47,821 bases of DNA from a virus, in the IMG/VR virus record IMGVR_UViG_3300037264_008253, positions 1 to 47,821 of that record. One strand, written 5' to 3'. Shown here piece after piece: positions 125-46,375 of the stretch (within the stretch, counting starts at the first letter, position 1; each line of letters begins with the position of its first letter). Below the pieces are notes generated by a model that was given only the letters and a program-made list of their open reading frames with translations, did no database searches and was not told the DNA's origin. Made by a program: the position numbers and the translations under genes.

Positions 125-705
125 GCAGGTACATCGACACGGCAGAACAGGCGGTCTTGATCCGCCAGGCTCTCAAGAAGAATTTTCCAGGGACCAAGTT
201 CTCGGTTCGCATCGACCGCTATTCGATGGGCTCGAGCGTGTATGTCAAGTGGACGGACGGCCCGACGTCAAAAAACGTCGACGCCGTGATCGGCGTCTAT
301 GACGGCAAACGGTTCGACGGGATGACCGACCTCTCGTATTCGGCCGAGCATTACCTCATGCCCGACGGCACCGCTCAGTTCCGGAGAACGTACGGCCATT
401 CGTTCCCCCAGGAAGACGGCCCGACTCCCCAGCCGGAAGGCTCGGAGATCGTCCATTTCTCGGGGTCGGTCTCGTCAAGCCGCACCCTCTCGCCAGAATT
501 CGAGGCTGACATCGTCCGCGAGATCGCCAAAGCCGCGATGAAAGACTGGCAGTCCCTTTACAGCAACGGCCACGTCAGCGGCACCATCCAAGTTCCGGTC
601 TTCGTTTCACGTGAGACCGGTGAGATCCTTCCGATCATGAATAGCGTGGAATACGTAACCAATCTCGTCTGGCAAGCAGCCTCCTATCGTTCAGGTGCAT
701 CATGA
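121..705 (+). CDS. LPD29-like domain protein
   Basis: This 194-residue protein begins with an ATG overlapping the upstream stop and preceded by a GGAAAGG ribosome site. Its first ~80 residues match the pattern I know for the large-polyvalent-protein-associated domain LPD29: an amphipathic helix (AVLIRQALKKNFPGTKFSVR), then SVYVKWTDGPT, then FDGMTDLSY and a short LMPDGT segment. The rest (about 95-194) is not recognised. LPD29 occurs in proteins of mobile elements that are often co-injected with DNA or act early in infection; its biochemical role is not established. It overlaps the next gene by 4 bp (ATGA), so the two are probably co-translated. Confidence 0.6.
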   Translation: MSRYIDTAEQAVLIRQALKKNFPGTKFSVRIDRYSMGSSVYVKWTDGPTSKNVDAVIGVYDGKRFDGMTDLSYSAEHYLMPDGTAQFRRTYGHSFPQEDGPTPQPEGSEIVHFSGSVSSSRTLSPEFEADIVREIAKAAMKDWQSLYSNGHVSGTIQVPVFVSRETGEILPIMNSVEYVTNLVWQAASYRSGAS

Positions 706-1301
706 CTCTCGTCGCCAGAGCTCTTGCCTACGCTGAAGAGATCCACCGCGGTCAGAAACGGACAGGGAAGGACGTGCCCTACATCATCCACCCCGTCCGG
801 GTGGCCGCTGAGATCTCAAGGGCAGGTGGAAGCGACGAGCAGGTCGCCGCTGGCCTGCTCCATGACGTCATTGAGGATCACCCCGAATTGACGAGCATCA
901 GTGATCTTGCAACACGTTTCGGAATCAATGTTGCAAGCATGGTGAATTCGATGACCACGAGAGGGAATGGCCCCTGGCGTGAATCGAAAGCGGCATTCAT
1001 CAACAACCTGGCGACAACAAGCAACCGAGTCGTCCTCGTCGCACTGGCCGACAAGCTCGACAACCTGACCGAGCTTCTTGCTGACCTGGGCAGGGACGGC
1101 GAGGTTGTGTGGACTCGGTTCAAGGGTGGCCGCGAGGGGCTCCTCTGGTACTACCAAAGACTGGACACGGCCTTCTTCTATCGGCGGGCCATGCTCAATC
1201 CTGGACTCTACGGCCGGTTTTCGGCGGCAGTCTCAATGCTCTTGAAAATGAGCAATGCCACCGAGACCGAGATGCAGGATGGAAGGTTCATCAGGGGGTG
1301 A
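702..1301 (+). CDS. HD-domain hydrolase, SpoT/Mesh1-like
   Basis: This 199-residue protein carries the metal-ligand pattern of (p)ppGpp hydrolases. His15 lies in AEEIHRGQKR, His30 in YIIHPVRVA, His54-Asp55 in LLHDVIEDH, and Asp117 in ALADKLDN. The spacing and surrounding residues (HP-x-R-V-A, HDVIED, LADKLDN) are those of the SpoT/RSH hydrolase domain and of small alarmone hydrolases, at about the size of a stand-alone enzyme. By family it would be a Mn-dependent hydrolase removing a 3'-linked pyrophosphate from an alarmone or from modified tRNA; the substrate here is inferred. The same phage encodes a RelA/SpoT-like domain at 35151-36020, so it may act as its antidote. Its 3' end overlaps the convergent methyltransferase gene by 11 bp. 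Confidence 0.8.
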   Translation: MTLVARALAYAEEIHRGQKRTGKDVPYIIHPVRVAAEISRAGGSDEQVAAGLLHDVIEDHPELTSISDLATRFGINVASMVNSMTTRGNGPWRESKAAFINNLATTSNRVVLVALADKLDNLTELLADLGRDGEVVWTRFKGGREGLLWYYQRLDTAFFYRRAMLNPGLYGRFSAAVSMLLKMSNATETEMQDGRFIRG

Positions 1302-5544: not shown

Positions 5545-5551
5545 CGCCCCG

Positions 5552-20363: not shown

Positions 20364-20680
20364 CAGATTTGCTTGCGCCCCAAAGGACACTGGCCGATTG
20401 GCTCGAGGTGCCGAGGACACATGGTCTCCTCGAGATTCGCCTCCCACCAACACCCGGGGTTGGGCACCGGCTTCCCCATGGCCTCTGCCGCCTCCTGGTC
20501 GACCGGCTCGTAAACCTCTCTGAATACGACGTCCTTGACCGGATAGAGTTCACCGCGTGTTCCGCGGACGATCCAGTCCCCGGGGCCCGCCTGCATGGGA
20601 CCCTCCCAGGTTTCAACGATCTCGGCCGCCGTCGCTCGCCTGAGAACCTCAATAACGACTGGCAGCTTGCGAAACTTCAT
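20363..20680 (-). CDS. PGDYG-like small protein
   Basis: From the ATG of 20680, overlapping the upstream stop, the product is 105 residues. It starts MKFRKLPVVIEVLR and contains a PGDWIVRGTRGELYPVKDVV block followed by FREVYEPV. This is the pattern of the small phage PGDYG-type domain (GDx-hydrophobic-x-x-G-E-x-Y-P). The end is Cys-containing (CPRHLEPIGQC), possibly a zinc site. The function of this domain is unknown. Confidence 0.6.
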   Translation of the reverse strand: MKFRKLPVVIEVLRRATAAEIVETWEGPMQAGPGDWIVRGTRGELYPVKDVVFREVYEPVDQEAAEAMGKPVPNPGCWWEANLEETMCPRHLEPIGQCPLGRKQI

Positions 20681-26399: not shown

Positions 26400-28473
26400 G
26401 AACGGTCGCAGTTAGAGTACCATCGCCGATCTTCACCGAATCGGATACGTGGGTAAGGTCTCGGATATCGAGGTCGGTCGCTGCCACAGTGACGGTTCCG
26501 GTGATCGTCACATCATTGTTGGCACCGAGATTTACGAGCAGGCCATCCGCTGACGTTCCCGGCGCCCTGTCCCAGGTGGCTCCATCCCAAATCAAAAGGT
26601 TGGCACCGATGCGGGACGTTGTCGGATTCGGATCGTTGTCGGCGAGGGCCGTTGCCGAAGGGAGCTCCGTGTCTACGGTAACGGTGCCGGTCACCGTCAC
26701 ATCGTTATTGGCACCGAGGTCGACGAGTAGTCCGTTCGCCGATGTTCCCGGCGCTCTGTCCCAGTTGGCCCCATCCCAGATAAGAAGGTTCGCCCCAATG
26801 CGTGACGTTGTGGGGTTGGGATCATTGTCTGCCAGCACCGTTGCCGCCGAGAGTTCCGTATCAACGGTGACAGTTCCAGTGATCGTCACATCATTGTTGG
26901 CTCCGAGATTGACAAGGAGACCGTCAGCAATCGATCCCTGCAACGGGCGGAGAGTGTTCCCGGCATCCTCCATCATCGCAGCCGTGCCGGTGATGGAAAG
27001 ATCAACATCGCCTTCGGTGTACTGAACCCCACCGCCAAAGGATGTGATATGCGCCCCTGCCGCATCAACGATTGCGACATTGAGAGAGTCGCTTGTGCCC
27101 GTATCGCGGACTGTCGCCGTCAGGGTGCCGTCACCAATCTTCACCGAGTCGGAGACATGGGTCAGGTCTCGGATATCGAGATCTGTAGCCACGACGGTGA
27201 CGCTACCGGTCACAGTCACATCGTTGTTTGCACCAAGATCAACCAGTAGCCCGTTGGCAGAACTCCCTGGTGCCCGGTCCCAGGTAGCCCCGTCCCAGAT
27301 GAGAAGGTTCGCCCCAATGCGTGAGGTGGTCGGATTCGGGTCGTTGTCAGCAAGAGCCGCAGCACTGGGGAGTTCGGTGTCAACCGTCACGGTACCGGTG
27401 ATGGTGACGTCGTTGTTGGCGCCCAGGTTGACAAGCAAGCCGTCGGCGATCGAGCCCTGAAGAGGACGAAGGGTATTGCCCGCGTCCTCCATCATCCCCG
27501 CCGTGCCAGTGATTGAAGCGTCTACGTCGCCCTCGGTGTACTCGGTACCGGCGCTCGAGCCCGAGATGATCGTCACCGGGAACGGGGTCGCCGCCGATGC
27601 CGGCCGGAGGGTGTTGCCAGCATCCTCCCACATGGCCGCGGTTCCAGTAATCGAGGCATCGACGTCCCCCTCGGTATACTGGACACCTCCACCAAAGGAC
27701 GTGATCTGTGCCCCAGCAGCGTCGACGATTGCCACGTTGAGCGAATCGCTGGCACCGGTGTTCCTGACCGTTGCCGTGAGCGTCCCGTCACCGATCTGTA
27801 CCGAGTCGGAAACGTGGGTGAGATCTCGGATGTCCAGGTTCGTCGCCGTGACCGTGACAGTCCCGGTGATGGTGACATCGTTGTTGGCCCCGAGGTTGAC
27901 AAGGAGACCGTCCGTGGAATTCCCGGGCGCGCGATCCCACGTCGCCCCGTCCCAAATCAGAAGGTTGGCTCCTACCCTTGAGGTCGTGGGATTTGGATCG
28001 TTGTCGGCAAGGGCGGAAGCGGCAGGAAGTTCCGTGTCTACCGCCACGGTCCCTGTCACCGTGACGTCGTTGTTAGCTCCCAGATTGACAAGCTGGCCAT
28101 CGACGGAATTCCCCGGGGCCCGGTCCCATGTCGCACCGTCCCAGATGAGAAGGTTCGCTCCGACTCTCGAGGTGGTCGGGTTCGGATCGTTGTCAGCAAG
28201 GACAGCCGCAGCTGGGAGTTCGGTATCAACCGTGACTGTGCCGAGGATGGAGACTGACCCATCGATCGTGATACTGCCGCCGTTGTCATCGATCGAAAGC
28301 GGCTCTTGAACGAGTACGTGGAGCCTGCCACCGGTGACATCGACCAGGTCCCCGAGTGCATTGGCGAGGACCATGACTTCCATGTGAACGGTGTCGGGAC
28401 CGATAAGAACGGTCTCGCTGCGTAACTTCTTGCCTGCGCCATCCAAAGGCAGAGCGATAAACGATTCGGCCAC
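26221..28473 (-). CDS. Repeat-rich virion/fibre protein, upstream part
   Basis: The protein begins MAESFIALPLDGAGKKL, then has a beta region (MEVMVLANALGDLV), and then five copies of the LLIWDG unit. These are interspersed with three copies of a second cassette (LDIRDLTHVSDSV, SLNVAIVDAAG, ITSFGGGVQYTEGDVD, EDAGNTLRP). In the last cassette the frame shifts right after NVAIVDAAG, and the remaining ~45 residues are Arg/His-rich nonsense ending at 26221. The homologous sequence continues in the ORF starting at 26399. The combined intact product would be about 1800 residues, plausible for a long beta-repeat fibre or decoration protein. Confidence 0.7.
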   Translation of the reverse strand: MAESFIALPLDGAGKKLRSETVLIGPDTVHMEVMVLANALGDLVDVTGGRLHVLVQEPLSIDDNGGSITIDGSVSILGTVTVDTELPAAAVLADNDPNPTTSRVGANLLIWDGATWDRAPGNSVDGQLVNLGANNDVTVTGTVAVDTELPAASALADNDPNPTTSRVGANLLIWDGATWDRAPGNSTDGLLVNLGANNDVTITGTVTVTATNLDIRDLTHVSDSVQIGDGTLTATVRNTGASDSLNVAIVDAAGAQITSFGGGVQYTEGDVDASITGTAAMWEDAGNTLRPASAATPFPVTIISGSSAGTEYTEGDVDASITGTAGMMEDAGNTLRPLQGSIADGLLVNLGANNDVTITGTVTVDTELPSAAALADNDPNPTTSRIGANLLIWDGATWDRAPGSSANGLLVDLGANNDVTVTGSVTVVATDLDIRDLTHVSDSVKIGDGTLTATVRDTGTSDSLNVAIVDAAGAHITSFGGGVQYTEGDVDLSITGTAAMMEDAGNTLRPLQGSIADGLLVNLGANNDVTITGTVTVDTELSAATVLADNDPNPTTSRIGANLLIWDGANWDRAPGTSANGLLVDLGANNDVTVTGTVTVDTELPSATALADNDPNPTTSRIGANLLIWDGATWDRAPGTSADGLLVNLGANNDVTITGTVTVAATDLDIRDLTHVSDSVKIGDGTLTATVRDTGTNDSLNVAIVDAAGHHLIRRRCPIHRRRRRCHDHRHSDDDGGCWQYSAPSPRFDC

Positions 28474-28491: not shown

Positions 28492-29772
28492 TCAGGCCAT
28501 CGCCACTTGAGCGAGATCAACTCGCTGGCGCAGCCGAACATCCTTGAGAGGAGCTCGGCGTGGAAAGTCGACTGGGATGGGCGTGAACTCAGCATCCAAT
28601 GGCCAGGGCGGATTCCGCTCCGCCATGAAGAGCACCTCACGCCAAACAGCCTCGACTGAGATCGCCCGGGTACAGGGCTTGGGGTCCGGCAGATTGCAGG
28701 CCGAGTGGTAACAAGGTGAGCAAGGAAGGCTTGCCCAAAGAGAGCGTGTCCAGCGGTAGTGCCGAAGCCTCGCATCAGGATCGACCGTCGACATTATCGC
28801 CACCGTCCGAGTGGAAAGAGCCTCGGCCAGGTGGAGCACCCCGGTATCCGGGGACACGACGACGTCGCATCCCTGGACAAGAGCCATGAGGGCGTGCATG
28901 TCGAGCTTGCCGGTCAGGTTGACACCACCGGAGGCGAGGAAGTTGCCGTCGGGCTCGAGCCGGGCGACGTCGATCAGGACAGGCTTCCAGCCCTCACGCG
29001 AAGCCTTGAGTGCCAGCTCTCCCTGACTTCGGAATGGCCATGAGCGGTTCCCCTGGGACGCTCGAGCAACGATCCCCAGAACCGGCCGGCCGCCAACCTC
29101 GGGCTCTTCGGCAAGTGCCCGCCCGCGGGCCCGCTCCTCGTCGCGCCGCTTGAGGGGGTAGCTGTAGTCGAGAGGCTTCCTGCCGAGAAGGTGCTCGGCG
29201 TAGCAGTCGATCCGGAACTTACGCTCGTTCCCGTTCCGCTCGGAGAAGCCCCGCATCTCGATCCCGTAAGGGTAGTGACCGAGGAGGCTCTCCACTGGGA
29301 CCACCGCATCAAGAAAGTCGAGGTCCCGGAGGGCCGCCAAATAGGGCTGGCCTGTCGCATAGATGAAGCGGAGGCGGGGGTAGACCTGGGCAAGCTCACG
29401 GAGGGCAATCGTGAGCATGAGAACATCCCCCAAGCCCATCGTCCGAACGATGGGGACGACCGTCCCCGGGGGTGCCGCTCTGAGTGCCCGGGGAGTCGTC
29501 CAGTCGATCTCCCGATCGGGGTCGACGAATCCACCCTTGGTCGAGAGGAACTCGTAGTCCTGGGGGCTCAGGTTTCCAACGGCGATCCCGCGGCGGAAGT
29601 GGATCACCTTCGAGGGGTCGGCGACCGAGCGGTGAACGTAGGAGAGCGCCCGTGCGAGAACGAGTCTCACCACCTCACCACCCTTTCCCGGGCCCGTTAG
29701 GACTGGGGATCCCCAGAGGTCCTTAAAAGAACCCCCAGCCCCAAGGGCCATCAAACCGTAGGCCAGCGCCAT
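28492..29772 (-). CDS. GT9 (heptosyltransferase-like) glycosyltransferase
   Basis: The 426-residue ORF has an active-site N-terminal motif VPIVRTMGLGDVLMLTIALR (G-x-G-D-x-L) and a C-terminal donor site CDVVVSPDTGVLHLAEALST, both GT9 hallmarks. A cysteine motif (CSPCYHSACN) and a CTRAISVEAVW end follow, as in heptosyltransferases. Initiation could also be at a GTG near 29670 after AAGGGTGGTGAG; the first 33 residues look atypical. It sits between major capsid and fibre genes, far from the other glycosyltransferases. A role in sugar-modifying virion proteins is possible. Confidence 0.75.
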   Translation of the reverse strand: MALAYGLMALGAGGSFKDLWGSPVLTGPGKGGEVVRLVLARALSYVHRSVADPSKVIHFRRGIAVGNLSPQDYEFLSTKGGFVDPDREIDWTTPRALRAAPPGTVVPIVRTMGLGDVLMLTIALRELAQVYPRLRFIYATGQPYLAALRDLDFLDAVVPVESLLGHYPYGIEMRGFSERNGNERKFRIDCYAEHLLGRKPLDYSYPLKRRDEERARGRALAEEPEVGGRPVLGIVARASQGNRSWPFRSQGELALKASREGWKPVLIDVARLEPDGNFLASGGVNLTGKLDMHALMALVQGCDVVVSPDTGVLHLAEALSTRTVAIMSTVDPDARLRHYRWTRSLWASLPCSPCYHSACNLPDPKPCTRAISVEAVWREVLFMAERNPPWPLDAEFTPIPVDFPRRAPLKDVRLRQRVDLAQVAMA

Positions 29773-32760: not shown

Positions 32761-32813
32761 CTCTGCCTCCCCAGCCACCTCGGGATTTCGTCGAACGTGA
32801 GCGGGATGCTCAT
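32757..32813 (-). CDS. 18-residue coupling micro-ORF
   Basis: An ATG overlaps the stop of the protease gene (ATGA). The 18-codon ORF, encoding MSIPLTFDEIPRWLGRQR, then ends in a TGA that overlaps the scaffold ATG (ATGA). The double overlap suggests a translational coupling device, though a real tiny protein is possible. Confidence 0.4.
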   Translation of the reverse strand: MSIPLTFDEIPRWLGRQR

Positions 32814-34057
32814 GCCGCCTCTTCCATGACTGCCGCAAGACTCACGCGCTCGACTGGCTTCACCGCCCAATCGCCACCGATTGAGTAGCCAGTGTACTCG
32901 CCATGCTCGATTCGCTTCCACACCTCGGGGTGATACTGGGTGCCCATCACCCAAGCCCCCTGCTCGAAGTCGGGATCACCGGGGCGGGCGATGAAGCTCT
33001 GAACCGGTAGGCCCGCCTCGGCTCCGTCGGGCATTACCCAACGGCCGTGCATCTCACCCGCGCGCCCGCGCTTGGAAAGCCAGTTGTGGGCCATCCGCTC
33101 AACCTGTTCGGCGGTTGCGAACTGGCCCTGGAGGTCAACCTCCCACGGCACATACACCTCGCCGAAAGCGATCCGCTCCTTCGCCCGCTCGGGCCGGATG
33201 AAGAGCTTCGAGCGACGGAGCCAATGCAGGCGGGAGGTCGGCGTGGCCCAATCCCCCTGAGTGGTTCGCTTTTCTCCCGCCCGCAACTCGTCCTTCGCGG
33301 TATACCAGATGTTCCTCCAGAACTTCTGGACCCATCGAATGGCGTCAATCGAGGCCGTTTCACCGGTGCCCACAAGACGCCCGGGAACGGTGATGTCGAT
33401 GATGTTCCTATGCTTGTGGCCGATCCCGACACGGACCGAGGCTCCGGGATGACCATGGATTGGAAGCGACAAGACTCGCGCGTATTTGGCGAGAACGTCG
33501 GGACGGGAGGAACTGTGGCGGACGATGAAGAAGCTCCCCTGTGAGGTCGCCCCTTGCGCTAGGACGTGCTTCTGTAGCGCGGCCGGGGCTTGGGGCGCTT
33601 GGGGCGGGGCTTCTTTCCGGCCGGCTTGGGCCGCTTTCGCGAACTCCCCGATCTCGAAGTATTGGCGGATCGCTCGCCAAGCCAGTTCCTCGGCATAGTC
33701 CTCGGCTCCCTTCCCCTGACCGGCGAAGCGTAAGGCGGAGCTCTGCATCCGGTTCCAGATCACCTGTCCCGCTTCGGGGAGAAGCTCTGCTTTCCGGCTC
33801 TCACAGGCGAAGCTCGAGCGGGCGCGGTCGCGAGTCCACTCCTGCTCGGGATCACGGGTCGGGATCGAGACGATCCCCTTTCGCTGGGGGTCAAGCCTGA
33901 GCGACTGAATAGGAGGGCCGCCGCCGATCCCACCTCCGGGCGGAGAGGTCTCGGGTTCGCCGCCAGCGGCCTCAATCGGCGGGCCGGTCCGAACGGTCTC
34001 GCCGCCGATCGTGACCTCGTGGACGTGTCCCTCGTCCTGCTTGAGCCTATTCACCAT
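32810..34057 (-). CDS. Prohead protease, XkdF/S78-like
   Basis: From the ATG of 34057 (GGAGGTGTGGGGG upstream) the protein has 415 residues. The C-terminal ~120 residues read GEVYVPWEVDLQGQFATAEQ, then AHNWLSKRGRAGEMHGRW, VQSFIARPGDPDFEQGAWVM and YTGYSIGG. This is the XkdF-like (Peptidase S78-related) prohead protease pattern, including the His-containing HGRW and Ser-containing YSIGG blocks. The N-terminal ~280 residues hold a Gly/Pro-rich region and helices of unknown purpose. It would process the scaffold and perhaps other head proteins, including MuF cargo (inference). Confidence 0.75.
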   Translation of the reverse strand: MVNRLKQDEGHVHEVTIGGETVRTGPPIEAAGGEPETSPPGGGIGGGPPIQSLRLDPQRKGIVSIPTRDPEQEWTRDRARSSFACESRKAELLPEAGQVIWNRMQSSALRFAGQGKGAEDYAEELAWRAIRQYFEIGEFAKAAQAGRKEAPPQAPQAPAALQKHVLAQGATSQGSFFIVRHSSSRPDVLAKYARVLSLPIHGHPGASVRVGIGHKHRNIIDITVPGRLVGTGETASIDAIRWVQKFWRNIWYTAKDELRAGEKRTTQGDWATPTSRLHWLRRSKLFIRPERAKERIAFGEVYVPWEVDLQGQFATAEQVERMAHNWLSKRGRAGEMHGRWVMPDGAEAGLPVQSFIARPGDPDFEQGAWVMGTQYHPEVWKRIEHGEYTGYSIGGDWAVKPVERVSLAAVMEEAA

Positions 34058-34086
34058 CCCCCACACCTCCACACCCACCTGCCCAA

Positions 34087-34138
34087 AAGCCCCGAGCCGT
34101 CTACCTGGCGTAGCGTCCCAGGAACGACTGCGGGGCTT
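34087..34138 (-). terminator. Hairpin upstream of the protease gene
   Basis: An 8-bp perfect stem (AAGCCCCG with CGGGGCTT), with an inner CCTGG/CCAGG pairing, is followed on the minus strand by TTTT. It lies in the 169-base gap (34058-34226) between a zinc-ribbon gene and the protease gene. It resembles a weak terminator or attenuator dividing upstream accessory genes from head assembly genes. Confidence 0.45.
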
Positions 34139-34179
34139 CAAGAGCCTCATCCGCCTGAGGAGGAGTCGAAATCGCGCGG

Positions 34180-34671: not shown

Positions 34672-34829
34672 GCAACTCGCGGCGATTCCTCCACAGAATG
34701 GGGCTTCGTCATCGGCAATGGAGAGCCGATCCCCAAGATGGCGAGAGAGATCTCGGGAACGTAGAGATATTCGGGATCACCCGTTGCGGCTCCAGAGGCA
34801 ATGAGTCCGGCCAAGAGAATTCCGATCAT
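34656..34829 (-). CDS. Signal-peptide ORF, upstream part of a split secreted protein
   Basis: The ATG overlaps the stop of the preceding gene (ATGA) and follows AAAGGAAAG. The product has 57 residues and begins with a signal peptide or membrane helix (MIGILLAGLIASGAATG), then EYLYVPEISLAILGIG. It ends in a different frame from the Cys-rich sequence that follows. A frameshift, real or caused by sequencing, is the simplest explanation. Confidence 0.5.
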   Translation of the reverse strand: MIGILLAGLIASGAATGDPEYLYVPEISLAILGIGSPLPMTKPHSVEESPRVAWGRL

Positions 34830-35089
34830 GTCTTTCCTTTCAGGCGGGCCACCACCACTCGCGCCTCGTCCGCGCTGACGAGCTCGGCATCTTGCTCCCC
34901 GATGAGATACTTGAACAACGCGGGGTCATTCACCCACACCCTAGAATCAGGATCAAAACGTTCCACGTGGAACGCGGTCTCGTTCTCCCGGGTTCGGAAA
35001 AGACCAGTCGGCTCGGCGGCAAGCCCCGGCTTGAGCCCGTAATACTTGACTGTTTCAGGCATTCGCGTTGGCACTCCTTCCACCTTCAT
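34826..35089 (-). CDS. Small hypothetical protein
   Basis: This 87-residue protein has AAGGAAG upstream of its ATG. It contains AEPTGLFRTRENETAFHVER and ends in VSADEARVVVARLKGKT. There is no signal or membrane segment. It is the first gene after the effector locus. The family is unknown, and an immunity role for the preceding RelA/SpoT-like gene can only be guessed from position. Confidence 0.5.
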   Translation of the reverse strand: MKVEGVPTRMPETVKYYGLKPGLAAEPTGLFRTRENETAFHVERFDPDSRVWVNDPALFKYLIGEQDAELVSADEARVVVARLKGKT

Positions 35090-35150: not shown

Positions 35151-36020
35151 TCATGGTGAGACAACATTTCCGAGGCCGAGGGCACCGGCAGGTATCACGA
35201 CACTCGACCAGAAGCCCCGCATCTCCTCGGCCAATTGCTTCCGCCTCTCGGCTGAGGTCCCATCCGCCCGGAATTCCTCATAGATCCGGTGCTGGCCTTC
35301 CTTCGCCCTGTAGGAATCCGGAGTGTGCATCTGAACCTCGAAGGTGAAGCCCGAGCGGTGCTCGAACACGTAGTTGTCACCTCGATAGAACTCCCCGTTC
35401 CAATAGTTTTTGTCCTTGTGATCGTAGATCTCGAAGCCCTTGGCCTTCATCTCCGCGATAAACCGATCGCGTCCTTCGACATAGCGGTCAGATGTCCATG
35501 TCGCCGTGTAACGGAGCATGTCGTGGAGATGCTGCTCAGGGTTTTCGGCACCGGTCCCCGACTCGGCCGCCTTCTCACGGAGTTTCTGCTCTGCCCGGTC
35601 GAGGCTCGCCTTGATCCTAAAGTCGAGGCCGACGGTCTGACCACCCGAGCCTTCGACGGCGTTGGTGAAAGCTGGCGTGATCTCCTTGTCGAGAACCTTC
35701 GCGCGTTCGTGGAGTGAATTGACCTGCCCTCGGTAATCACTCGATCGGCCGGCACCACCCGCGCCACCCTCTCGCCCACCACCCTCTTCTGAGCCCTCAC
35801 CGCGTCGGCCGTGAGACTCCTGGTCGTGCTGTCCGGGGAGATGTTTCGCCGACTCAGTACCTTGGATCAATCCGATCGCCAGCTCCATAGCCGCTTCGTC
35901 ACCTTGATCCATGAGACGCGCGAACTCACCGGCAAGCCGACGGTTGCCATTCGCGACGGCACGATAATAGGCTTCCGTCACAAGGAACCAGCGGTCATCG
36001 AGATTTTGGATCGTACTCAT
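35151..36020 (-). CDS. RelA/SpoT-like pyrophosphokinase domain protein with MuF-type adaptor
   Basis: The 289 residues comprise an N-terminal helical ~58-residue segment, the adaptor KHLPGQHDQESHGRRGEG (59-76), a Gly-rich linker and a RelA/SpoT (RelSpo) domain at about 130-272. Diagnostic pieces are DFRIKASLDRAEQKLREKA (R-x-K-x-S-x-x-x-K), HDMLRYTATW (D-x-L-R-Y-T), YVEGRDRFIAEMKAKGFEI, KNYWNG, YRGDNYVFE and FTFEVQMHTPDSYRAK-EGQHRIYEEFR. Asp167 and Glu228 would be the metal ligands, so the catalytic signature is intact. Related domains act as alarmone synthetases or as toxins that pyrophosphorylate nucleotides or tRNA CCA ends (toxSAS). It overlaps the MuF gene by 26 bp and shares its adaptor, which argues for packaging with the head. 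The target is inferred. Confidence 0.75.
   Translation of the reverse strand: MSTIQNLDDRWFLVTEAYYRAVANGNRRLAGEFARLMDQGDEAAMELAIGLIQGTESAKHLPGQHDQESHGRRGEGSEEGGGREGGAGGAGRSSDYRGQVNSLHERAKVLDKEITPAFTNAVEGSGGQTVGLDFRIKASLDRAEQKLREKAAESGTGAENPEQHLHDMLRYTATWTSDRYVEGRDRFIAEMKAKGFEIYDHKDKNYWNGEFYRGDNYVFEHRSGFTFEVQMHTPDSYRAKEGQHRIYEEFRADGTSAERRKQLAEEMRGFWSSVVIPAGALGLGNVVSP
35793..35846 (-). repeat. Adaptor motif copy 3 (RelA/SpoT-like gene)
   Basis: Encodes KHLPGQHDQESHGRRGEG. It differs from the two MuF copies by a few residues and many synonymous bases, so it is an old module, not a recent duplication. Confidence 0.85.
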
Positions 36021-38694
36021 ATCGTATGTGACCGTCTTTCGCGACGCGAACCCAAACCTCGTGCCAATGCCTTGCCCCCGCTTGATCTCTATCCAACTGG
36101 CCGTTTTCTATCGCCGAGGAGAACTCACTTCTCACAGAACCTTCATGTAAATGTGCCGAATTGATCACGTCATTCCAGTCACGGGTTGGGCTCATCCTGA
36201 ACAGCCCACCGTCAAATCCAACAGCTCTGATTTCGCGAAAGTTGTTCGTCCTTGCCACTGTCACATCTGCAAACGACAGCGTATTCGAATTTGGATGGTT
36301 GTGCGTGAGAACAGCCCCCAGACCATAATCCCTTTGGGGTGCCGGAGCCGAATGATAGCTGCCAGTTTCCCGTGAATCGAAAACCAATTCGCCGTTCTCC
36401 GCAATGATGAATACACGCTCCCTCGCACGATCGCTCAATTCCCCTGCTTCTCTTTCGCGAGCCGTGTCTAGTGCCGCTTTGCCTGTTTTGAACTTTCCAC
36501 CATAAGAAACCTTCTCTCTTGGTAGCATTTCGGCCACCTGCGCCGCCCGGTACTCCATACCGACCCTTGCCACTTGATCAAGTTCACCCCTAACCTTCTC
36601 ATATATTTCCGGGCTTGTACCACTGTATGACTTGTCAACCGTCTCTAGCCAGTATTCCACCTCATGGACGTCACCACTAGCCAAAGCCGTTAGAAATTGA
36701 TCCCCGACTGGAGTTCCCTTGAATAGGCTTTGCTCTTTGTCGACCAGCCCACGCAAAGTTTCCGCTGCTTGGAGATTTGCAGCCACTCTGTCTCTGGTCG
36801 CCGAGACCCGCGCGATCTCTGATCTCGATTCGCCTTCCTGGCTTGCGCCTTCGCCTCGTCGCCCATGAGTAGATTGGTCGTGCTGTTCCGGAAGGTGCTT
36901 GGCTAGAGGTTCCCCAGCTCCCGCGCCTGGTCGAGGATCAAATTGACGTGGGAGTCCGCCCACTCCCGACCCTCGTTCTTTGCCACGAGATCGACGAGTT
37001 GCTGTTCCTCTGGCGTCAGCTTTGGCCTGATCGAAATCTTCGTAGTACCGCGTCGCTCGCTCGTGCGACGACCATTGTTCCCGGTCGAGTACCCGCTCTC
37101 TAAGCTGCTCATCGCTTTCACCTGTGTCCGTTAGTGCCATGAAGACGACGTCCGGATCGTCATGCTTCCCGTAATCCCAATTGGACGGAGCGAAGTCCCG
37201 GTTGAAACGCATCCGCCCCGTTTCGCGAAAGCCGAATTGTGCGTAGTAGCCCGGAAGATGGCCGGCGAAGGCATCAAGTGTCCGCCCACCTCGGTTCATC
37301 GCCTCGAGAACAGCCTCGGTTGCGGCCCCCTTCGGCCCACCGTTGTTGAAAAGGTTCTGGATGTCTCCCTCAGGTGATACTCCAACACCTACTTTGCCGT
37401 CCTCTGATAATAGCATGTCGTGCTGTGCTATGTCGCTCGGCTCAAGAGGAGAAAGGAACCCCGGCCGGGTACTCCGATTACGCTCTGTAATGAATCGAGA
37501 CGCATCGGGCTTTTCCGACCATCCCGGCTTCCATCCGCCATAGCGGCTCGAGGTACCTCCCTCACTCGCACCCTCGCCACCTCCACGCCCATGAGTCGAC
37601 TGGTCATGACCACCTGGGAGATGCTTGGCCCAAGGCAGCATCTTCCCCCCTGCGACAGCAACCTGCTCTTCGTCCTCGTCGAGCATCGCCAGGCGCTCCT
37701 TCGAGAACTCATCAGGGTCATTGTCGCCGTCCCACACGTGAGCGTCCGAGATGAGCTGATCTTCGGTGACAATTGGGATGTCATCACACCGACATCGAGC
37801 CGTCTGCTCGAGCGAGGCCGATGAGTCCCCCGGGTGCTGAAGCTCCTCGCCGCCCACGATGAAGGGATCCTCGACGGCAACGATCTGCCCATGAGCTTCG
37901 AAGTGGTCTGGCCTCTCCCGGCCGTCGAGGGTCGTGAGCCACCGCTTAAAGGGGACACCACTTGCCTCATAGACCGCTTGTTGCGCCTCTTCCGTAATCG
38001 CCAGCGTTTCCTGATGCGCGATGAGTTCCGCTCGTTCACGGGAGAGATAGCTAAACTCCTGCTCGAGGAGCTTCGCCACCTCAAGCGGCCCCTTGCCGTT
38101 GAGATAGAACTCTTCAGCAATGACCGTCCGGAGACGGTCGTAGACCGAGTCCGAGATTCCAGAGATCAGATTCGCCCGCTCCTCGAGGGCCTCGAGGATG
38201 AATGGACTGTGAAGCTCGAACGATCCCGAGACCCGAAGTTTGAGCCGGGCCCCGCGGCCGCCTGCGTTGTAGAGCTTGACGTAATCCTTGAGGAGGGTCG
38301 CCTCGAGCTCGATCCGCCAGTCATCGGCCTCAGTACCGAAGAGCCTCCCGATCGCTCGGACCTCATCTGTCTCGAAAAGCGGCTCGATGAGGCGAGCTCG
38401 TTCCCGGCCGAGCTCTCGCCCCGAACGTCCGCGGGCCGCCTTCTTGCCGATTCTCTCGCGCCACTTCTGGGCATCCCGGGCAAGGTCAGAAAGAAGTCCC
38501 GAGCCCTCTAGCTTTCCCATGGTGCGGGCTGAGAAGACCTTGACGGTAGCCGCGATCTTCTTCCGCAAGTCCTGGGTGAGTGGATCAAGCGGAATGGGCC
38601 GGCGGATGAGGGCACGGAGACCGCGTGGTCGGGCAAGGCGGGGAATGGCACCTGACCGGCGCGGACGAGGGACGCGGACAAGAACGAGGCTCAC
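35995..38694 (-). CDS. MuF minor head protein carrying GNAT-like and JAB-like cargo domains
   Basis: I start at a GTG that overlaps the upstream TGA (GTGA) with AGGAG before it. An ATG at 38721 would add nine residues; the residue numbers here count from that ATG. Residues ~50-315 form a MuF/SPP1 gp7 head-morphogenesis region, ending in the usual cysteine motif ARCRCDDIPI. After an acidic linker, a first adaptor KHLPGGHDQSTHGR (366-379) leads to a GNAT-like domain (440-530: GVGVSPEGDIQNLFNNGG, LDAFAGHLPGYYAQFGFRE, APSNWDYG, DPDVVFMAL). A second adaptor KHLPEQHDQSTHGRRGEG (608-625) leads to helices and a JAB/RadC-like domain (735-840) with GAVLTHNHPNSNTLSFADV (H-x-H-P ... S-x-x-D). MuF proteins with extra toxin-like domains are known from polymorphic toxin studies. 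Two stacked cargo domains separated by repeats of the adaptor are unusual. Confidence 0.8.
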   Translation of the reverse strand: MSLVLVRVPRPRRSGAIPRLARPRGLRALIRRPIPLDPLTQDLRKKIAATVKVFSARTMGKLEGSGLLSDLARDAQKWRERIGKKAARGRSGRELGRERARLIEPLFETDEVRAIGRLFGTEADDWRIELEATLLKDYVKLYNAGGRGARLKLRVSGSFELHSPFILEALEERANLISGISDSVYDRLRTVIAEEFYLNGKGPLEVAKLLEQEFSYLSRERAELIAHQETLAITEEAQQAVYEASGVPFKRWLTTLDGRERPDHFEAHGQIVAVEDPFIVGGEELQHPGDSSASLEQTARCRCDDIPIVTEDQLISDAHVWDGDNDPDEFSKERLAMLDEDEEQVAVAGGKMLPWAKHLPGGHDQSTHGRGGGEGASEGGTSSRYGGWKPGWSEKPDASRFITERNRSTRPGFLSPLEPSDIAQHDMLLSEDGKVGVGVSPEGDIQNLFNNGGPKGAATEAVLEAMNRGGRTLDAFAGHLPGYYAQFGFRETGRMRFNRDFAPSNWDYGKHDDPDVVFMALTDTGESDEQLRERVLDREQWSSHERATRYYEDFDQAKADARGTATRRSRGKERGSGVGGLPRQFDPRPGAGAGEPLAKHLPEQHDQSTHGRRGEGASQEGESRSEIARVSATRDRVAANLQAAETLRGLVDKEQSLFKGTPVGDQFLTALASGDVHEVEYWLETVDKSYSGTSPEIYEKVRGELDQVARVGMEYRAAQVAEMLPREKVSYGGKFKTGKAALDTAREREAGELSDRARERVFIIAENGELVFDSRETGSYHSAPAPQRDYGLGAVLTHNHPNSNTLSFADVTVARTNNFREIRAVGFDGGLFRMSPTRDWNDVINSAHLHEGSVRSEFSSAIENGQLDRDQAGARHWHEVWVRVAKDGHIRYEYDPKSR
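36850..36903 (-). repeat. Adaptor motif copy 2 (before the JAB-like domain)
   Basis: Encodes KHLPEQHDQSTHGRRGEG, joining the GNAT-like and JAB-like domains of the MuF protein. A long Arg/Gly-rich stretch precedes it. Confidence 0.85.
37585..37629 (-). repeat. Adaptor motif copy 1 (before the GNAT-like domain)
   Basis: Encodes KHLPGGHDQSTHGR, after MLPWA and before a Gly-rich linker. It marks the junction between the MuF domain with its acidic extension and the first cargo domain. Confidence 0.85.
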
Positions 38695-39103: not shown

Positions 39104-40042
39104 TTATTTCGCCAGGGTTGACCGGGGCACCACCTTACCCGCCTTGCGGCACCGCACCGCCCGCTCGTAGAAGGGCTGTACCTGCTCGAACGAGTCCTGG
39201 GTCAGGGAAATCATCCCACCATAATCGATCCATGCTTTGAGTAGCACCGTCTCGAAGTTCCCGGGGTCGACGCTCAGGACGTTCCGCCGGTGACCACGCC
39301 ACAGCTCGACCGACTGCTCCCAGGGCCATATATGAACCCAGTGCGAGTTTTCCAGAAACACCGGCATCGTCGATTGACGCTCCCCGTTGACCAGGACGAT
39401 TCCCCCAGCGCGGTCGTTCACCCCTTCGCGAACCAGGGTCAGGTAGTTGCTGATGTTCAGCTTCCACGCCTCGGCCGTACCTGGCGCCAGATGTTCGATC
39501 GATCCGCCGTCGGGCGCATCCATCCAGTCCGCCGGGGCGAGCCAGTATTGGTCGATGAACATATGGGTGCACGCGCGGGACAGTCTGACCTGCGTATCGG
39601 CGATCTCTTGCTGGTGCCCGGCGTCGATCTTCGACCAATCGATCAGGGACGGATTCCCCAAGGCGGAGAAGAGAACCTTGCGCCCCAGCGTATCGACAAG
39701 TACGGCGTTCCATTCGGTGCGTACCTTGGCATCGATCCAATTGAGCCACGTATCGTCGCCGCCGACCCATTCCGGCCGTGGCAGGGTGAGAACGTTGTAA
39801 TAGCGGAAGCCGGGATTGCCGGCCTGGACCAGACCCGAGACCGCATCTTCGTAGGTCCCCGTATGACCGTAGACGAACACGTCGAGCGGCTCGAGTTCGG
39901 CGGGTGAACCACCATCGGCAATTACTTCGAGGTCCTCAACTTCCAGGTGGCGCATGAGGAGCCGATCGGGAGGGCGGGTGTACCACCAACCGCCACCGGC
40001 AAGTACGAGTGCCATTCCGATTGCAAGAAAAGTCCGCTTCAC
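39104..40042 (-). CDS. Signal-anchored glycoside-hydrolase-like protein
   Basis: The 312 residues start with a signal peptide or anchor (MKRTFLAIGMALVLAGGGWW). The remainder matches the C-terminal domain of the head-closure fusion at 19002-20363 over its full length, including MRHLEVEDLEVI, LDVFVYGHTG, SLIDWSKIDAG, TSHMFIDQYWL-like and RRNVLSVDPGNFET blocks. The FIDQYWL block resembles an acidic active-site strand of TIM-barrel glycoside hydrolases, but the nucleophile cannot be assigned. Its secreted form could act on the host envelope or on glycans during adsorption or release (inference). It lies between the zinc-ribbon genes and the MuF locus. Confidence 0.6.
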   Translation of the reverse strand: MKRTFLAIGMALVLAGGGWWYTRPPDRLLMRHLEVEDLEVIADGGSPAELEPLDVFVYGHTGTYEDAVSGLVQAGNPGFRYYNVLTLPRPEWVGGDDTWLNWIDAKVRTEWNAVLVDTLGRKVLFSALGNPSLIDWSKIDAGHQQEIADTQVRLSRACTHMFIDQYWLAPADWMDAPDGGSIEHLAPGTAEAWKLNISNYLTLVREGVNDRAGGIVLVNGERQSTMPVFLENSHWVHIWPWEQSVELWRGHRRNVLSVDPGNFETVLLKAWIDYGGMISLTQDSFEQVQPFYERAVRCRKAGKVVPRSTLAK

Positions 40043-40831: not shown

Positions 40832-40995
40832 GCCGATTCGTCCTTCACATGCGTCAGCTCGCAATACACAATCACAACCGCAAACCCAACGCACAGAATA
40901 GGCCCGCCAACGCACCAGCCGAAAGCGATCAGTGCTACGGCCAGCGGTAACTTGAAAGCCAGGGGGCGCATGAAACGATGGTTCACACTGCTCAT
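40828..40995 (-). CDS. Small double-helix membrane protein
   Basis: The 55 residues begin MSSVNHRFMRPLAFKLPLAV and contain two adjacent hydrophobic helices (PLAVALIAFGWCVGGPI and LCVGFAVVIVYCEL) with a short polar tail. The ATG overlaps the methyltransferase stop, and its own stop overlaps the next gene. It could be a holin-like or superinfection-exclusion protein; both are guesses. Confidence 0.5.
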   Translation of the reverse strand: MSSVNHRFMRPLAFKLPLAVALIAFGWCVGGPILCVGFAVVIVYCELTHVKDESA

Positions 40996-41834
40996 GCGGT
41001 TGCTTCCTCCCTCGGGAGCCAGCAATGCGCCACATGCCGCGCCAGCTCGAAGGGGATCTTCGCGATCATGGCCGAGGCGGCCTTGCGCTTGGGCGACTTA
41101 GACCAATACGACCGAAGCTCTCCGGGTGCCGTCTCATTGAACCAGTCCCCGCCTTGCTTCACCCCATGATGCTCGGCCGGATTCGTCATGTGCGGTGTAT
41201 GCAGCGGCCGCCCGTCGGGGTTCTGTCCCTTGCCGCTCGTTGTGTTGTGCGCGACTCGGAACCAGGAACCGCCTTCGTTCTTGATCGCGGAATCGGTGAA
41301 GCATCTGCCTGGCCCATCAGCGTAGCCCGGCTCGCCGTGCTTGCTCCAATCAAGTCCGCCGACCTTCACGCCTCTGCGCCTTGTAACAATCGGCATGAGC
41401 GCGGGCACGTCGCCCCAGAGGTAGTAGCTCCCATAATGCCAACGCGCGCGCCCCACCCACTTCTGAGCGCCGCGAACGTTCTCGACCACCATCGGAACGT
41501 GTCGGCCGGCGGCCGCGCTCGCCTCACGCTGTATGCGGAAGCAGGCATCGAAGAGCGAATTGTCGGGTGGCGGCAATGCCTTCGCCCTCTTCCAAGGCAT
41601 GGCTCGGTAGCTGTACGCCTGGCAGGGCGGGCTCGCGACGATGAGGGTTGCGTCCTTGAACTGCGAACCATGGAGCGTGAGAACATCTTGGAGAACGAGC
41701 TGCGCTGGGTAGCGGTGGTCGCCGTAGACATGCTGCTCAATGTCGAAGCCAATCACGTCGTAATCCTCGGCGAGCAGGCCATCGGTCCAACCACCCAGGC
41801 CGCAATAGAGGTCGACCGCCAGCGGTCCGCTCAC
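40992..41834 (-). CDS. C5 cytosine DNA methyltransferase
   Basis: The 280-residue protein has motif I (AVDLYCGLGGWTDGLL), the catalytic PCQ loop (VASPPCQAYSYRAMPW) and the VVENVRG motif VI, in the right order and spacing. A shortened C-terminal part follows without a recognisable full target-recognition domain. Compared with standard Dcm-type enzymes it is short, as is common in phages. It probably protects or marks phage DNA against host restriction. It overlaps the portal gene by 4 bp, so it is expressed late with structural genes, which is unusual for a protective methylase. Confidence 0.85.
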   Translation of the reverse strand: MSGPLAVDLYCGLGGWTDGLLAEDYDVIGFDIEQHVYGDHRYPAQLVLQDVLTLHGSQFKDATLIVASPPCQAYSYRAMPWKRAKALPPPDNSLFDACFRIQREASAAAGRHVPMVVENVRGAQKWVGRARWHYGSYYLWGDVPALMPIVTRRRGVKVGGLDWSKHGEPGYADGPGRCFTDSAIKNEGGSWFRVAHNTTSGKGQNPDGRPLHTPHMTNPAEHHGVKQGGDWFNETAPGELRSYWSKSPKRKAASAMIAKIPFELARHVAHCWLPREEATA

Positions 41835-43756
41835 ACCTTACCCTTGAGTACAGTCTCCGGATGCTTGCCGGCATTCGCTCCGACTGTCGAAAGCCGGCCC
41901 GCGGTCTCAAGGAGTACCTGACGCCGCGCCGCCATCCGGTCCCTGAAACGGCGGGTCAACTCGCGCCTGATCGAGGCGTATCGGGGATCAACGGCAAGCT
42001 GCATCGATGGGGGAAGCCGAGGCACCCGGGTCTGCCCTTCGTTGGGGACGCCTGTTCTCGTGCCGTTCCCTTGTGTGAGAGCCACACCATCTTGGGCCCC
42101 AGCCTCCTCCATCACGACCGTCTCTTCGGACTCCTCTTCGCCCTGGCCTAGTGTTCCACCCAGAACACCTGCAATCTGCATCTCGACCTCCCACTTGGGA
42201 ATGTCGGCCAAATCCGTTTCCCTCTCGGGGAAGTCCTGATCCTTCCGGATCGTCGAGAGCCACGCCCGCTCCTCGTTCTCACTCAGTGAGCCCGAGGCCG
42301 ACGCTGCGGCAAAGAGCGACATCTCCCGTTGCTCATCCATGACGTCGATCTCGCGGAACTTGTGCCGGACAAGGGTCATCTGCCAACGGTCGAGGATGGC
42401 GTTATAGAAGGCTTCGACAAGCTCCTGCCGAGGATCGATCTGGGCTCGCTTGTAGGTCTCCTCCTCGCTCTCGCCTGAGCCCCCACCCAGGTTCGCTGTC
42501 TCGACGATCCCGAGACGGCGGGGAAGAACGCGATACACTCCGACCACAATGTCACGGTTGGAAGTCCGGAACCCCAAGAGGAAGTCCTTGTCCTCGATAC
42601 CCGTGTCGAGCTTCTCCCACTTGGTCTCGATCTCACCGGTGGGGAGCCGGAGAATCAGGGTTCGGTGATCGTCCCCCTGGATGATGTAGTGCATGTGCTC
42701 AACAATTGCCTGCTCGTATTCGTCGATGATGGTGTTCGAGCCGTCCTCATCGAATGTCGAACGATCCGCTCGGATCTCGACCAACCAGTCAGGCATCCCG
42801 CGGTTGAAGAAGTAGCGAACGTTTCGCGTATCCGAGAAGATGTTACCCAAGACCGATGCCAAGGCCGCAATGATGGGAGGGACCCCATACCAAAGCTCGG
42901 CTGTGTGGTAGTGGCGGAATTCGTAGAGCTCGTGCTTCACTGAGCCTGGCTCAACACCCGCGACACGTGCCTCTCCACCGGAATAGACAGAGGTCTGGTC
43001 CTGAGAGTTCGAGCCGAAGCGGCGAAAGAAAGCCACCTCCCGCCCGATCTCATCGATCTGGACGAAGGTCCCATCCCAGCGCTTCCGCACGAGCCGGCTC
43101 GGGATGTGGAAGCCCGCAACCGGCGCCCCAGTTTGCGCGTCGGGAACGATCTCGATCCAGCCCTCGCCTGTTGATTCCCGGTCCATCATGACGACCTTGC
43201 AGAAAGACGCCAATGGCATCGGGGTTCCCTGGAAGTCCCGGCCGAATCCCTCGAGGCGCTTCTTCGCTTCCGTCCGCTGCCGGATCGACTCCGCATCCCC
43301 GCTCGCCGTCCGCTCGACGTCCCCATATTCAGGGACGAGAGCCATCTCCCTCTCGGGATTCTCAGCATCGATGAGATCCCAGCCCATGCCGGCAACGTCA
43401 GTCGCGAGCTGATCGACGGTGCGATAGAAGTCGGGCGAGTCGTAGAGGAGGTTACCCAGGTACTCGAGGTCGTAGGGGGGCTCAATGATCCCCTTGGCGT
43501 CGCGACGGAAGTCCTCCTCTGGAAGCCGCGAAGCGCGGTCTTGCTTGGTCTGAAGGTCAGAGGATTGGAGGCTTCGCCGGAATTGGTACTGAATGGCGGA
43601 GCCGTGGCGCGCCTGCATGGGCCCCTCGCGACGGATGGCTATCGAGCGGGCCCACTTCCTCTCGCCGCTCTTACCACCACCGCGACCTGGCTCCGGATGT
43701 CCCAGCGGAACAATATCCGACACTTCCACCCACTCCCTTCCCTTCAACCCTTCCAC
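41831..43756 (-). CDS. Portal protein
   Basis: This 641-residue protein lies downstream of the terminase. It contains typical portal blocks, including PPYDLEYLGNLLYDSPDFYR, GTPMPLASFCKVVMMDRESTGEG, HIPSRLVRKRWDG, GVPPIIAALASVLGNIFSDT (the conserved stem/wing region) and FRTSNRDIVVGVYRVLPRRLG. This is the PBSX/HK97-type family. A GTG start at 43756 with GGAGAG upstream is the better choice; an ATG at 43618 is an alternative. The portal forms a dodecameric DNA entry pore. Confidence 0.85.
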   Translation of the reverse strand: MEGLKGREWVEVSDIVPLGHPEPGRGGGKSGERKWARSIAIRREGPMQARHGSAIQYQFRRSLQSSDLQTKQDRASRLPEEDFRRDAKGIIEPPYDLEYLGNLLYDSPDFYRTVDQLATDVAGMGWDLIDAENPEREMALVPEYGDVERTASGDAESIRQRTEAKKRLEGFGRDFQGTPMPLASFCKVVMMDRESTGEGWIEIVPDAQTGAPVAGFHIPSRLVRKRWDGTFVQIDEIGREVAFFRRFGSNSQDQTSVYSGGEARVAGVEPGSVKHELYEFRHYHTAELWYGVPPIIAALASVLGNIFSDTRNVRYFFNRGMPDWLVEIRADRSTFDEDGSNTIIDEYEQAIVEHMHYIIQGDDHRTLILRLPTGEIETKWEKLDTGIEDKDFLLGFRTSNRDIVVGVYRVLPRRLGIVETANLGGGSGESEEETYKRAQIDPRQELVEAFYNAILDRWQMTLVRHKFREIDVMDEQREMSLFAAASASGSLSENEERAWLSTIRKDQDFPERETDLADIPKWEVEMQIAGVLGGTLGQGEEESEETVVMEEAGAQDGVALTQGNGTRTGVPNEGQTRVPRLPPSMQLAVDPRYASIRRELTRRFRDRMAARRQVLLETAGRLSTVGANAGKHPETVLKGKV

Positions 43757-44785: not shown

Positions 44786-46375
44786 TCATTCAAGGTCCCT
44801 CACTGAAAGCGATTTGGCAGCCCCACGCACTGGCTTCCCCTTGCCGAGCATCTTGGCATTGGCGAGATAGACCGATACCAGCCGATCCCCCGGATGCCCC
44901 TGCGGATCGTAACGGCGCATGTCGGCAAAGAGCTCGGCAATCTCGGGCTGCCCCTTGGGAAAGCGCCACTTCATAGCCTCGATCTCTGGGCCCATGCCAC
45001 GGATCCCCCACTTGACGTCCTCTCGGTGGACCTGCTTGGTCGTATAGAGCCCATGGGTCGAGACCGCGATCTTCGTTGCGAGCCGTCTTGCCCGCTCGGC
45101 CTCAAGCCCCAGCGATTGCGCCACAGCAAGAACAATGGCCTCGTTCGAAAGGAGCGAGACGAGGTGTATTTGCTGAGCATTCGATTCGACCACGAGCTCC
45201 CTGAGGATGTGCTCGAACATCGCCCAAACTTGGACGACGTTCTCGAAAAGGAGGTTCCCGACCCAGAGTCCCGAGCGGATGTGGAGCGGGCGTTTGAAGC
45301 CGTCGACACCATAGCCGAGAACCGTGAGTGCCGCTCTCGAGGAGCCCGGCTGGAGTGAGCCGCCAATGTCGAGCCCACCGGTGACCCAGCGCATGGCCTC
45401 GTTGGGCACACCTCCATCCCACCAACCGATAGGGTCATCGCAAAGCTCCTGCGAGCGGAGGGCATTGGCGAGTGGCAAGTATCCTGTCGCCTCGCCGAAG
45501 GCGATGTTGAGGAACTGGCGCGCGAACTCAAGCTCGCCGAGCTCCTTTCGCCTCTGTGCAAGTCGAGCGTCGGACCAGCGGCTCGGCCAGCGGCAAATCC
45601 CTTCATTCGCTCGATAGGTGATCTTGACGTAGCCCGGGAGCCTTGCCGCTTCGTGCCGGTAATCGTCCTCGTACCAAGCGGTGCCGATATCCCAGATCGA
45701 CCCGCCCTCAACGATTCGCGAGAGAGGACCCGAGGGCGAGCGATACCATTCCCATGTCCTCTCCCGCGATGCTTGGGTGTGCGTGTTCTCGAAGTCGAGG
45801 ACGTCATCAAGAATGATGATGTCGAAACGGGCACCGCCAAGTGGACCATGAACACCGAAGGCTTGGACCGATGGTTCCTTGTGAGTGAAGGCAGCACTGT
45901 CCGAACGCTGAACGATGAACTTCTCGTCTGACCAGGCTTGTGTATACCCGGGTCGAGTCTCGGGAACGAGACTCGGGAAGACCTCGCGGACCTTGGGGTT
46001 GACTTCGATGTTGGTTCGAATCTGGGAGACCCACTTCTTCGCCTTGGTCTCAGTGTCCGAGATGATGGCGATACGAAGGTCGGGGTTCTCGCCGAGATTC
46101 CATAGCGGTCGGCAAACAGTAAATTGAGAGCTCTTGCCAAATTCGATCGGGGCTTCGACAACGAGCCGATCGTGGGCTTTACAGGCATCCTGCCACTCCA
46201 CATGGAAGGGCTGGGTCTCGAAGCCGAGCGCGTATTCACCGAGCCAGCACGGATGCTTCTTCGATAGCTCCACCATCAGGAGCCGCTTGAGAATTTTCGC
46301 TTGGGCTTCTGTTAGTGAAGAGAGATTCGAGAGCTCGCAAAGCGGCGACGAGCTCAAGCTGAATGGCACTGTCAT
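44786..46375 (-). CDS. Terminase large subunit
   Basis: The 529-residue protein has an N-terminal ATPase with a deviant Walker A (VVEAPIEFGKSSQF), Walker B (FDIIILDDVLDF) and a C-terminal nuclease with the first catalytic Asp in VTGGLDIGGSLQPG. The ATG at 46375 has GAAGGTG five bases upstream and overlaps the small terminase gene by 140 bp in another frame. The motor pumps DNA into the head and cuts at the end of packaging. Its C-terminal nuclease looks complete. Confidence 0.85.
   Translation of the reverse strand: MTVPFSLSSSPLCELSNLSSLTEAQAKILKRLLMVELSKKHPCWLGEYALGFETQPFHVEWQDACKAHDRLVVEAPIEFGKSSQFTVCRPLWNLGENPDLRIAIISDTETKAKKWVSQIRTNIEVNPKVREVFPSLVPETRPGYTQAWSDEKFIVQRSDSAAFTHKEPSVQAFGVHGPLGGARFDIIILDDVLDFENTHTQASRERTWEWYRSPSGPLSRIVEGGSIWDIGTAWYEDDYRHEAARLPGYVKITYRANEGICRWPSRWSDARLAQRRKELGELEFARQFLNIAFGEATGYLPLANALRSQELCDDPIGWWDGGVPNEAMRWVTGGLDIGGSLQPGSSRAALTVLGYGVDGFKRPLHIRSGLWVGNLLFENVVQVWAMFEHILRELVVESNAQQIHLVSLLSNEAIVLAVAQSLGLEAERARRLATKIAVSTHGLYTTKQVHREDVKWGIRGMGPEIEAMKWRFPKGQPEIAELFADMRRYDPQGHPGDRLVSVYLANAKMLGKGKPVRGAAKSLSVRDLE

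Follow-up and report, generated by a model that had tools for sequence, protein, structure and literature searches.

In MuF polymorphic toxins (Jamet et al. 2017, PMC5576092), effector domains are attached to the C terminus of a MuF head protein; the genes belong to the head and packaging module of temperate phages and are accompanied by a cognate immunity gene. Polyvalent proteins (Iyer et al. 2017, PMC5512222) unite domains such as GNAT, RadC-JAB, RelA/SpoT, and ART in one phage protein that is predicted to be packaged, and are recognized by at least two conflict domains in one protein together with a virion context. In Apk2 (PMC12226406), MuF and an adenosine 3'-pyrophosphokinase, a synthetase of the RelA/SpoT type, share one chain, (p)ppApp is made from ATP, and an alarmone hydrolase serves as protection. 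Short peptides of head proteins that are read by the phage's own assembly machinery or protease are known from the capsid targeting sequence of T4 and the gp245 propeptides of SPN3US, the latter with a short motif common to portal, protease, and internal head proteins (PMC10052503). Here we describe a locus in the virus record IMGVR_UViG_3300037264_008253, which was analyzed over its full 47,821 bases (the window). Two adjacent genes encode a MuF protein with a GNAT-like and a JAB domain stacked behind it (gene 1) and a protein similar to alarmone synthetases (gene 2). Each of the three modules is headed by a 13-residue peptide of the pattern KHLPxxHDQxxHG, referred to as the HDQ tag, at amino acids (aa) 366 and 608 of gene 1 and aa 59 of gene 2, and a Gly-rich stretch follows the tag in each of them.

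The window resembles the MuF toxins in its gene order (terminase, portal, MuF, protease, and capsid-type genes) and in the putative effector domains C-terminal to MuF, and the polyvalent proteins in carrying a GNAT-like and a JAB domain on one MuF protein. As in the Apk2 system, it contains both a synthetase cargo and an alarmone hydrolase; the same pair occurs, with adjacent genes, in the related locus L113 (L numbers denote the loci compared). MuF and synthetase are encoded separately in the window, whereas they are fused in its relative L003. In contrast to the MuF toxins and Apk2, two domains are stacked, a third is encoded by a separate gene, and a tag precedes each domain. No common short tag is mentioned in the passages found on polyvalent proteins, whose domains are encoded here by separate tagged genes as well. 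Compared with the peptides of T4 and SPN3US, the HDQ tag is unrelated in sequence, longer, His-rich, internal, and repeated at domain borders, and it is one of many lineage-specific classes. The original prediction, made for this locus from the bare sequence, had set two tandem domains plus a third on the next gene apart from the known MuF fusions to single toxins. However, multi-domain effectors on MuF or portal proteins, RelA/SpoT-MuF fusions, and GNAT and RadC-JAB domains in polyvalent proteins had already been described (PMC5512222, PMC5576092, PMC12226406). The domain set is a variant of these known effectors. The common tag, which the prediction did not mention, is the most unusual feature of the locus, and no description of it was found in the open-access literature, where HDQ-type, RDE-type, and other tag strings returned no paper (subscription papers and preprints lay outside the search).

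The HDQ tag is conserved as a peptide and lies close to MuF

A scan with the pattern KHLPGxHDQ yielded 58 viral contigs with up to seven copies each, several of them with two to seven. Prokaryotic matches were limited to 11 contigs in about 85,000 genomes. Among 74 distinct instances, His was present at position +11 in 73 and Gly or Ala at +12 in 69, both positions lying outside the search pattern, and there was almost no conservation of the flanks beyond about −3 and +18. The reversed pattern gave no match in 30 contigs, compared with 51 forward matches; because these contigs had been preselected for a match, only the extra copies are informative. Segments upstream of the tag matched MuF, portal, S78 protease, and ART, and segments downstream matched ART families, DRAT, GNAT, zeta toxin, M90 peptidase, ParB-like proteins, kinase, and others. 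A MuF domain was detectable in 22 long contigs; tag and MuF were on the same strand in all of them, and in 18 the nearest tag was within 4 kb of MuF (mean of 4.1 and maximum of 12 for a random anchor). Several loci hold multiple tags, with seven in L044 and four in a single chain of L022. The frame of the latter, 2064 aa long and located at 2235-5915 on the minus strand, contains JAB-like domains in an array.

The codons differ between the tag copies of the window, which are therefore not recent copies of each other. Codon agreement at identical tag residues was 50.5%, compared with 45.3% expected from the codon use of the same genes. Selection acts at the level of the tag peptide, whose codons are not conserved, and a role of the tags as DNA repeats or recombination sites is disfavored by the codon divergence. 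JAB was also considered as a universal tag processor, which is contradicted by a detectable JAB domain in only 5 of the 58 loci of the tag scan.

Each phage carries its own class of tag

Elsewhere, the domains of the window were found behind other peptides. The same GNAT is preceded by WTAEKHPRDEHGRF, of the form HPRDEHGRF (L092), HPKGVPVGGKW (L015), ERDEDGRW (L160), QPRDENGQW (L161), FCPTGEGGGIDNSCS (L158), HEGPQGGTYY (L167), and others, and the same JAB by NPYHxxxGRF, HPRDERGRW, GSGNFGHAGRPG, and others; HPRDExGRF is a further class pattern in these phages. The class is nearly constant within a contig. When only contigs identified through protein homology were considered, among them the window, 41 of 45 tag pairs belonged to the same class, compared with a mean of 8.0 and a maximum of 19 in 5000 shufflings. 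The protease carried the tag class of its phage in L004, L005, L113, and ctUhy936.

Tags were also read at the C terminus of portal proteins: YNPYHGEDGRF in ctUhy936, whose protease holds two NPNH forms, WDESKHPRAENGQF in a Helicobacter pametensis prophage, WEENKHPRADNGQF in Xanthomonas phage PhiXhv-5, and EFNPYHDERGRF in the thaumarchaeal provirus Pro-Nvie1 (L193), where a RelA/SpoT-like gene adjoins. The search matches leading to the portals of these named phages were weak, except for Pro-Nvie1 (4e-4), but the motifs themselves are clearly legible. In Pro-Nvie1 (1798-3814), the tagged portal overlaps the RelA/SpoT-like gene by 29 nucleotides, which resembles the overlap of genes 1 and 2 in the window (26 nucleotides). 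The cyanophage CL131 (L185, 5893-12549) encodes the Cys-rich element CKxGxxCGxxCIPKxxxC in six copies over gp044 (JAB), gp045, gp047, and gp048; this is apparently another tag class, here in a cultured phage whose virion proteome of 23 proteins has been measured (PMC6293099). When isolate phages were searched by tblastn, the short HDQ and GSGNFGHAGRPG tags gave no matches and two other tags mostly weak ones.

Cargo domains are swapped, split, and reordered in related phages

Domain swapping among related phages is real, as had been anticipated for a modular array. On a single chain of 1122 aa, L003, which is 63% identical, joins MuF, HDQ tag, and JAB to a tag of a second kind, followed by an ART-like domain (labeled from the sequence by eye) and the synthetase. 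L004 has MuF-tag-JAB without GNAT, L005-L008 combine MuF, the tag YVRDDLGRF, and JAB, and L114/L160 has the order tag-GNAT-MuF-tag-JAB. In L113, the most telling case, terminase, portal, and a cargo-free MuF (PF04233, 2.5e-14) are followed by separate tagged genes for GNAT (phrog_2563, 4.7e-10; hhalign 99%), JAB, and synthetase (29% identity to gene 2, 3e-14), in the cargo order of the window. Downstream of the synthetase are a small alarmone hydrolase (HD_4) gene and a protease with a tag and another JAB. Among all loci compared, GNAT, JAB, and synthetase occurred together only in the window and L113. The 87-aa gene at 34826-35089 of the window was compared with the small gene downstream of the L113 synthetase as a possible homologue, and the two did not align. 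The MuF genes of L012, L013, and L014 are split by intein-like insertions at the conserved Cys motif (CNC|FPG...SNCRC).

Cargo domains of the window

The prediction of a MuF protein with GNAT-like and JAB-like cargo agrees with the domain matches (PF04233, phrog_2563, and the JAMM residues below). MuF ends in ARCRCDDIPI near aa 316 of 908, and about 590 residues follow, as had been noticed. The GTG start (Table 1) is consistent with the N terminus of L003, the nearest relative. For the GNAT-like part, aa 432-531 matched phrog_2563 with 4e-14, and its relatives are annotated as acetyltransferases in many Streptomyces phages. Viral contigs supplied 17 relatives. An AF2 model had a pLDDT of 94.7, and its leading Foldseek matches were nearly all GNATs (NatB, IAA acetyltransferase, RimI-type). 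Their probability reached 0.99, but the E values were weak, with a best E of 0.004, and the TM scores were about 0.3-0.5. The canonical coenzyme A loop (Q/R)xxGx(G/A) was not present, the loop of the window reading NNGGPKG. We regard the domain as a divergent GNAT-like one with putative catalytic activity.

The last part of the protein contains THNHPNSNTLSFADV. The JAB search gave 59 loci, and in the 43 sequences aligned only E, HNHP, S, D, and one R were invariant. They include a complete JAMM/RadC-type metal site, E768, H807-N-H809-P, S816, and D819 (E147, H186, H188, P189, S195, and D198 in domain numbering). The AF2 model of the region reached a pLDDT of 84.6, with weak Foldseek matches (PfJAMM1, E 0.59; AF2198, E 1.6). 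The window domain had no Pfam match, and a relative in L022 scored above the Pfam RadC cut-off (1.6e-5). Against PDB sequences, the JAB and GNAT profiles returned chance-level matches only. Cleavage of peptide or isopeptide bonds, the activity originally suggested for this domain, is doubtful and one option only, because RadC-type and polymorphic-toxin JABs have been argued to be nucleases and not deubiquitinases (PMC3482391).

A third enzyme-like domain had been expected on the next gene. Gene 2 matched the SaSAS alarmone synthetase (8vx3) with 4e-18 and phrog_7625 with 1.9e-20; its synthetase domain is similar to SaEAS/SaSAS (1.6e-17) and retains the E-x-Q and H-x-x-Y-E stretches. It differs from SaEAS/SaSAS and toxSAS (PMC12691689; PDB 8vx3) in being head-associated and in having a tagged leader in place of the Sec signal. 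Its putative product is ppApp or ppGpp. Of 11 other records with a synthetase, 3 (two belonging to the same lineage) also had a small alarmone hydrolase (HD_4), compared with 1 of 30 tagged records selected for having no detected synthetase. Its gene lies just after the synthetase in L113, an arrangement as in apk2-iapK-aph1 (PMC12226406), and 34 kb from it in the window. This co-occurrence and the adjacency in L113 support, with small numbers, a toxin role of the synthetase, which the producing cell would have to withstand and against which the hydrolase would protect it. The hydrolase gene of the window adjoins a gene at 121-705 (plus strand) with an LPD29 polyvalent-protein-associated domain.

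Proposed role of the tags and alternatives

Tags are located at the borders between head protein and cargo, between two cargoes, and between leader and cargo, and the protease is often of the same class, so that a common recognition element fits best. We propose that the two genes encode three head-borne effector modules, each made of tag, Gly-rich linker, and domain, which would be taken into the virion head together with MuF and delivered to the next host along with the DNA. The tag peptide would be recognized in trans by the phage's own head-assembly machinery, as a docking site, as a cleavage site for the prohead protease, or as both. Fused modules would be packaged as a polyprotein and then cut apart, and separately encoded modules would lose their leader. 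Each lineage has its own tag class, common to effectors, portal, MuF, and protease, for which the shared motif of SPN3US is a precedent. Separately encoded tagged cargoes fit packaging alone, and internal tag copies fit cleavage. A protease of the S78_2, S78, or DUF2213 family was detected in 18 of 26 tagged records; searches for a capsid family (PF25209) and a terminase family added little. We rate the chances that the head machinery recognizes the tag for packaging and/or protease cleavage as about even.

Several points weigh against such recognition. The three protease families were lacking in 8 of the 26 tagged records, one of which (Pro-Nvie1) has an annotated protease/capsid fusion, and no prohead protease site of comparable length and His content is known to us. 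A packaging tag would be superfluous on a protein already fused to MuF or portal, and many MuF-JAB fusions are without a recognized tag. The tag classes were drawn by hand after the data had been seen, and looser patterns give some chance matches (e.g. L012 minus strand and L175).

In single-domain cargoes without MuF fusion (L113, L136, and gene 2 of the window), the tag is near the N terminus after a short leader, as would suit a pure packaging signal that stays uncut like the capsid targeting sequence of T4. Tags also lie, however, within chains of which MuF or portal is already a part, and in several copies (four in one chain of L022, seven in the locus of L044), and we consider a purely packaging role rather unlikely. 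The tags are His- or Cys-rich, with a Cys-rich class in CL131, and often precede Gly-rich linkers, which would be expected of a flexible or metal-binding hinge that helps stiff cargo to unfold through the portal and recurs from physical need and because the shuffled cassettes have a common ancestry. A hinge would not need residues that are nearly invariant and regularly spaced, nor a single class in each phage, and the differing codons argue against recent copies; we consider this explanation slightly less likely still. Multi-domain proteins of this kind are well described (PMC5512222, PMC5576092), and the locus could encode an ordinary polyvalent or MuF toxin protein with linkers that are similar by chance. 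Given the 58 contigs, the additional conserved positions outside the pattern, the proximity to MuF, and the class coherence, we attach very little weight to this idea.

Extending recognition by the head machinery to tailed viruses of bacteria and archaea, we tentatively suggest that a lineage-specific peptide "address" (HDQ, NPYH-GRF, PRDE-GRF, GSGNFGHAGRPG, and others) marks modules as head cargo for loading or release and that effectors are traded between phages by adopting the tag of the recipient, for which we see somewhat less than even chances. Because tags recur in front of unrelated head cargoes in numerous uncultured phages, injected proteins may be loaded or trimmed in a manner not yet described. 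Provided that the tags mark head cargo, sequence alone would suffice to list the effectors that uncultured phages inject, the head entry of proteins other than T4-type internal proteins would be explained, and a defined peptide would be at hand for testing protein loading or release in phage particles. It would also become directly testable, in a few cultured phages, which proteins a phage ejects and by what selection, a question that has long been open.

Gene order and neighboring genes

The minus-strand order is terminase, portal, MuF gene, gene 2, XkdF-type protease, a scaffold-like gene, and a capsid-like virion protein. The usual head order is kept, with the effector genes placed between portal and prohead protease (Table 1), which supports the expected link of the cargo to head genes.

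Table 1. Positions of the genes, domains, and tag copies in the window
Feature	Position	Strand	Evidence or remark
Gene 1, MuF-tag-GNAT-tag-JAB, 908 aa	35995..38721	-	ATG at 38721; alternative GTG start at 38694
MuF domain core, aa 208-312	37786..38100	-	PF04233 1.8e-11; phrog_2468 2.4e-29
Tag copy 1 KHLPGGHDQSTHG, aa 366-378, then Gly-rich stretch	37588..37626	-	
GNAT-like domain, aa 403-574	37000..37515	-	phrog_2563; AF2; Foldseek
Tag copy 2 KHLPEQHDQSTHG, aa 608-620	36862..36900	-	
Helical subdomain and RadC-type JAB domain, aa 622-908	35998..36858	-	Invariant JAMM residues; AF2
Gene 2: leader, tag copy 3, alarmone-synthetase (Apk/SAS-like) domain	35151..36020	-	8vx3; phrog_7625
Tag copy 3 KHLPGQHDQESHG, aa 59-71 of gene 2	35808..35846	-	
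Prohead protease, XkdF type (Peptidase_S78_2), candidate tag processor	32810..34150	-	PF14550 4.4e-18
Portal protein	41831..43756	-	phrog_12 6.6e-19
Terminase large subunit	44786..46375	-	phrog_38 8.1e-48
Small alarmone hydrolase (HD_4), candidate protection against synthetase cargo	702..1301	+	PF13328 1.2e-18; PDB 7qoe 1.1e-32

A C5 cytosine methylase-like gene is located between portal and MuF (40992-41834, minus strand). The proteins of 39104-40042 and 19002-20453 (minus strand) have a domain in common (YGHTGTYEDAVSGL and YGHSDQEQETVSSL, respectively), for which no Pfam family was found. Two long genes at 23112-28473 (minus strand) contain many repeats like TVDTELPxAxALADNDPNPTTSRIGANLLIWDGATWDRAPG. 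Glycosyltransferase genes of the GT2/GT9 type are present among the structural genes at 2684-4285 and 28492-29772 (minus strand), and their products possibly glycosylate the virion or the host surface.

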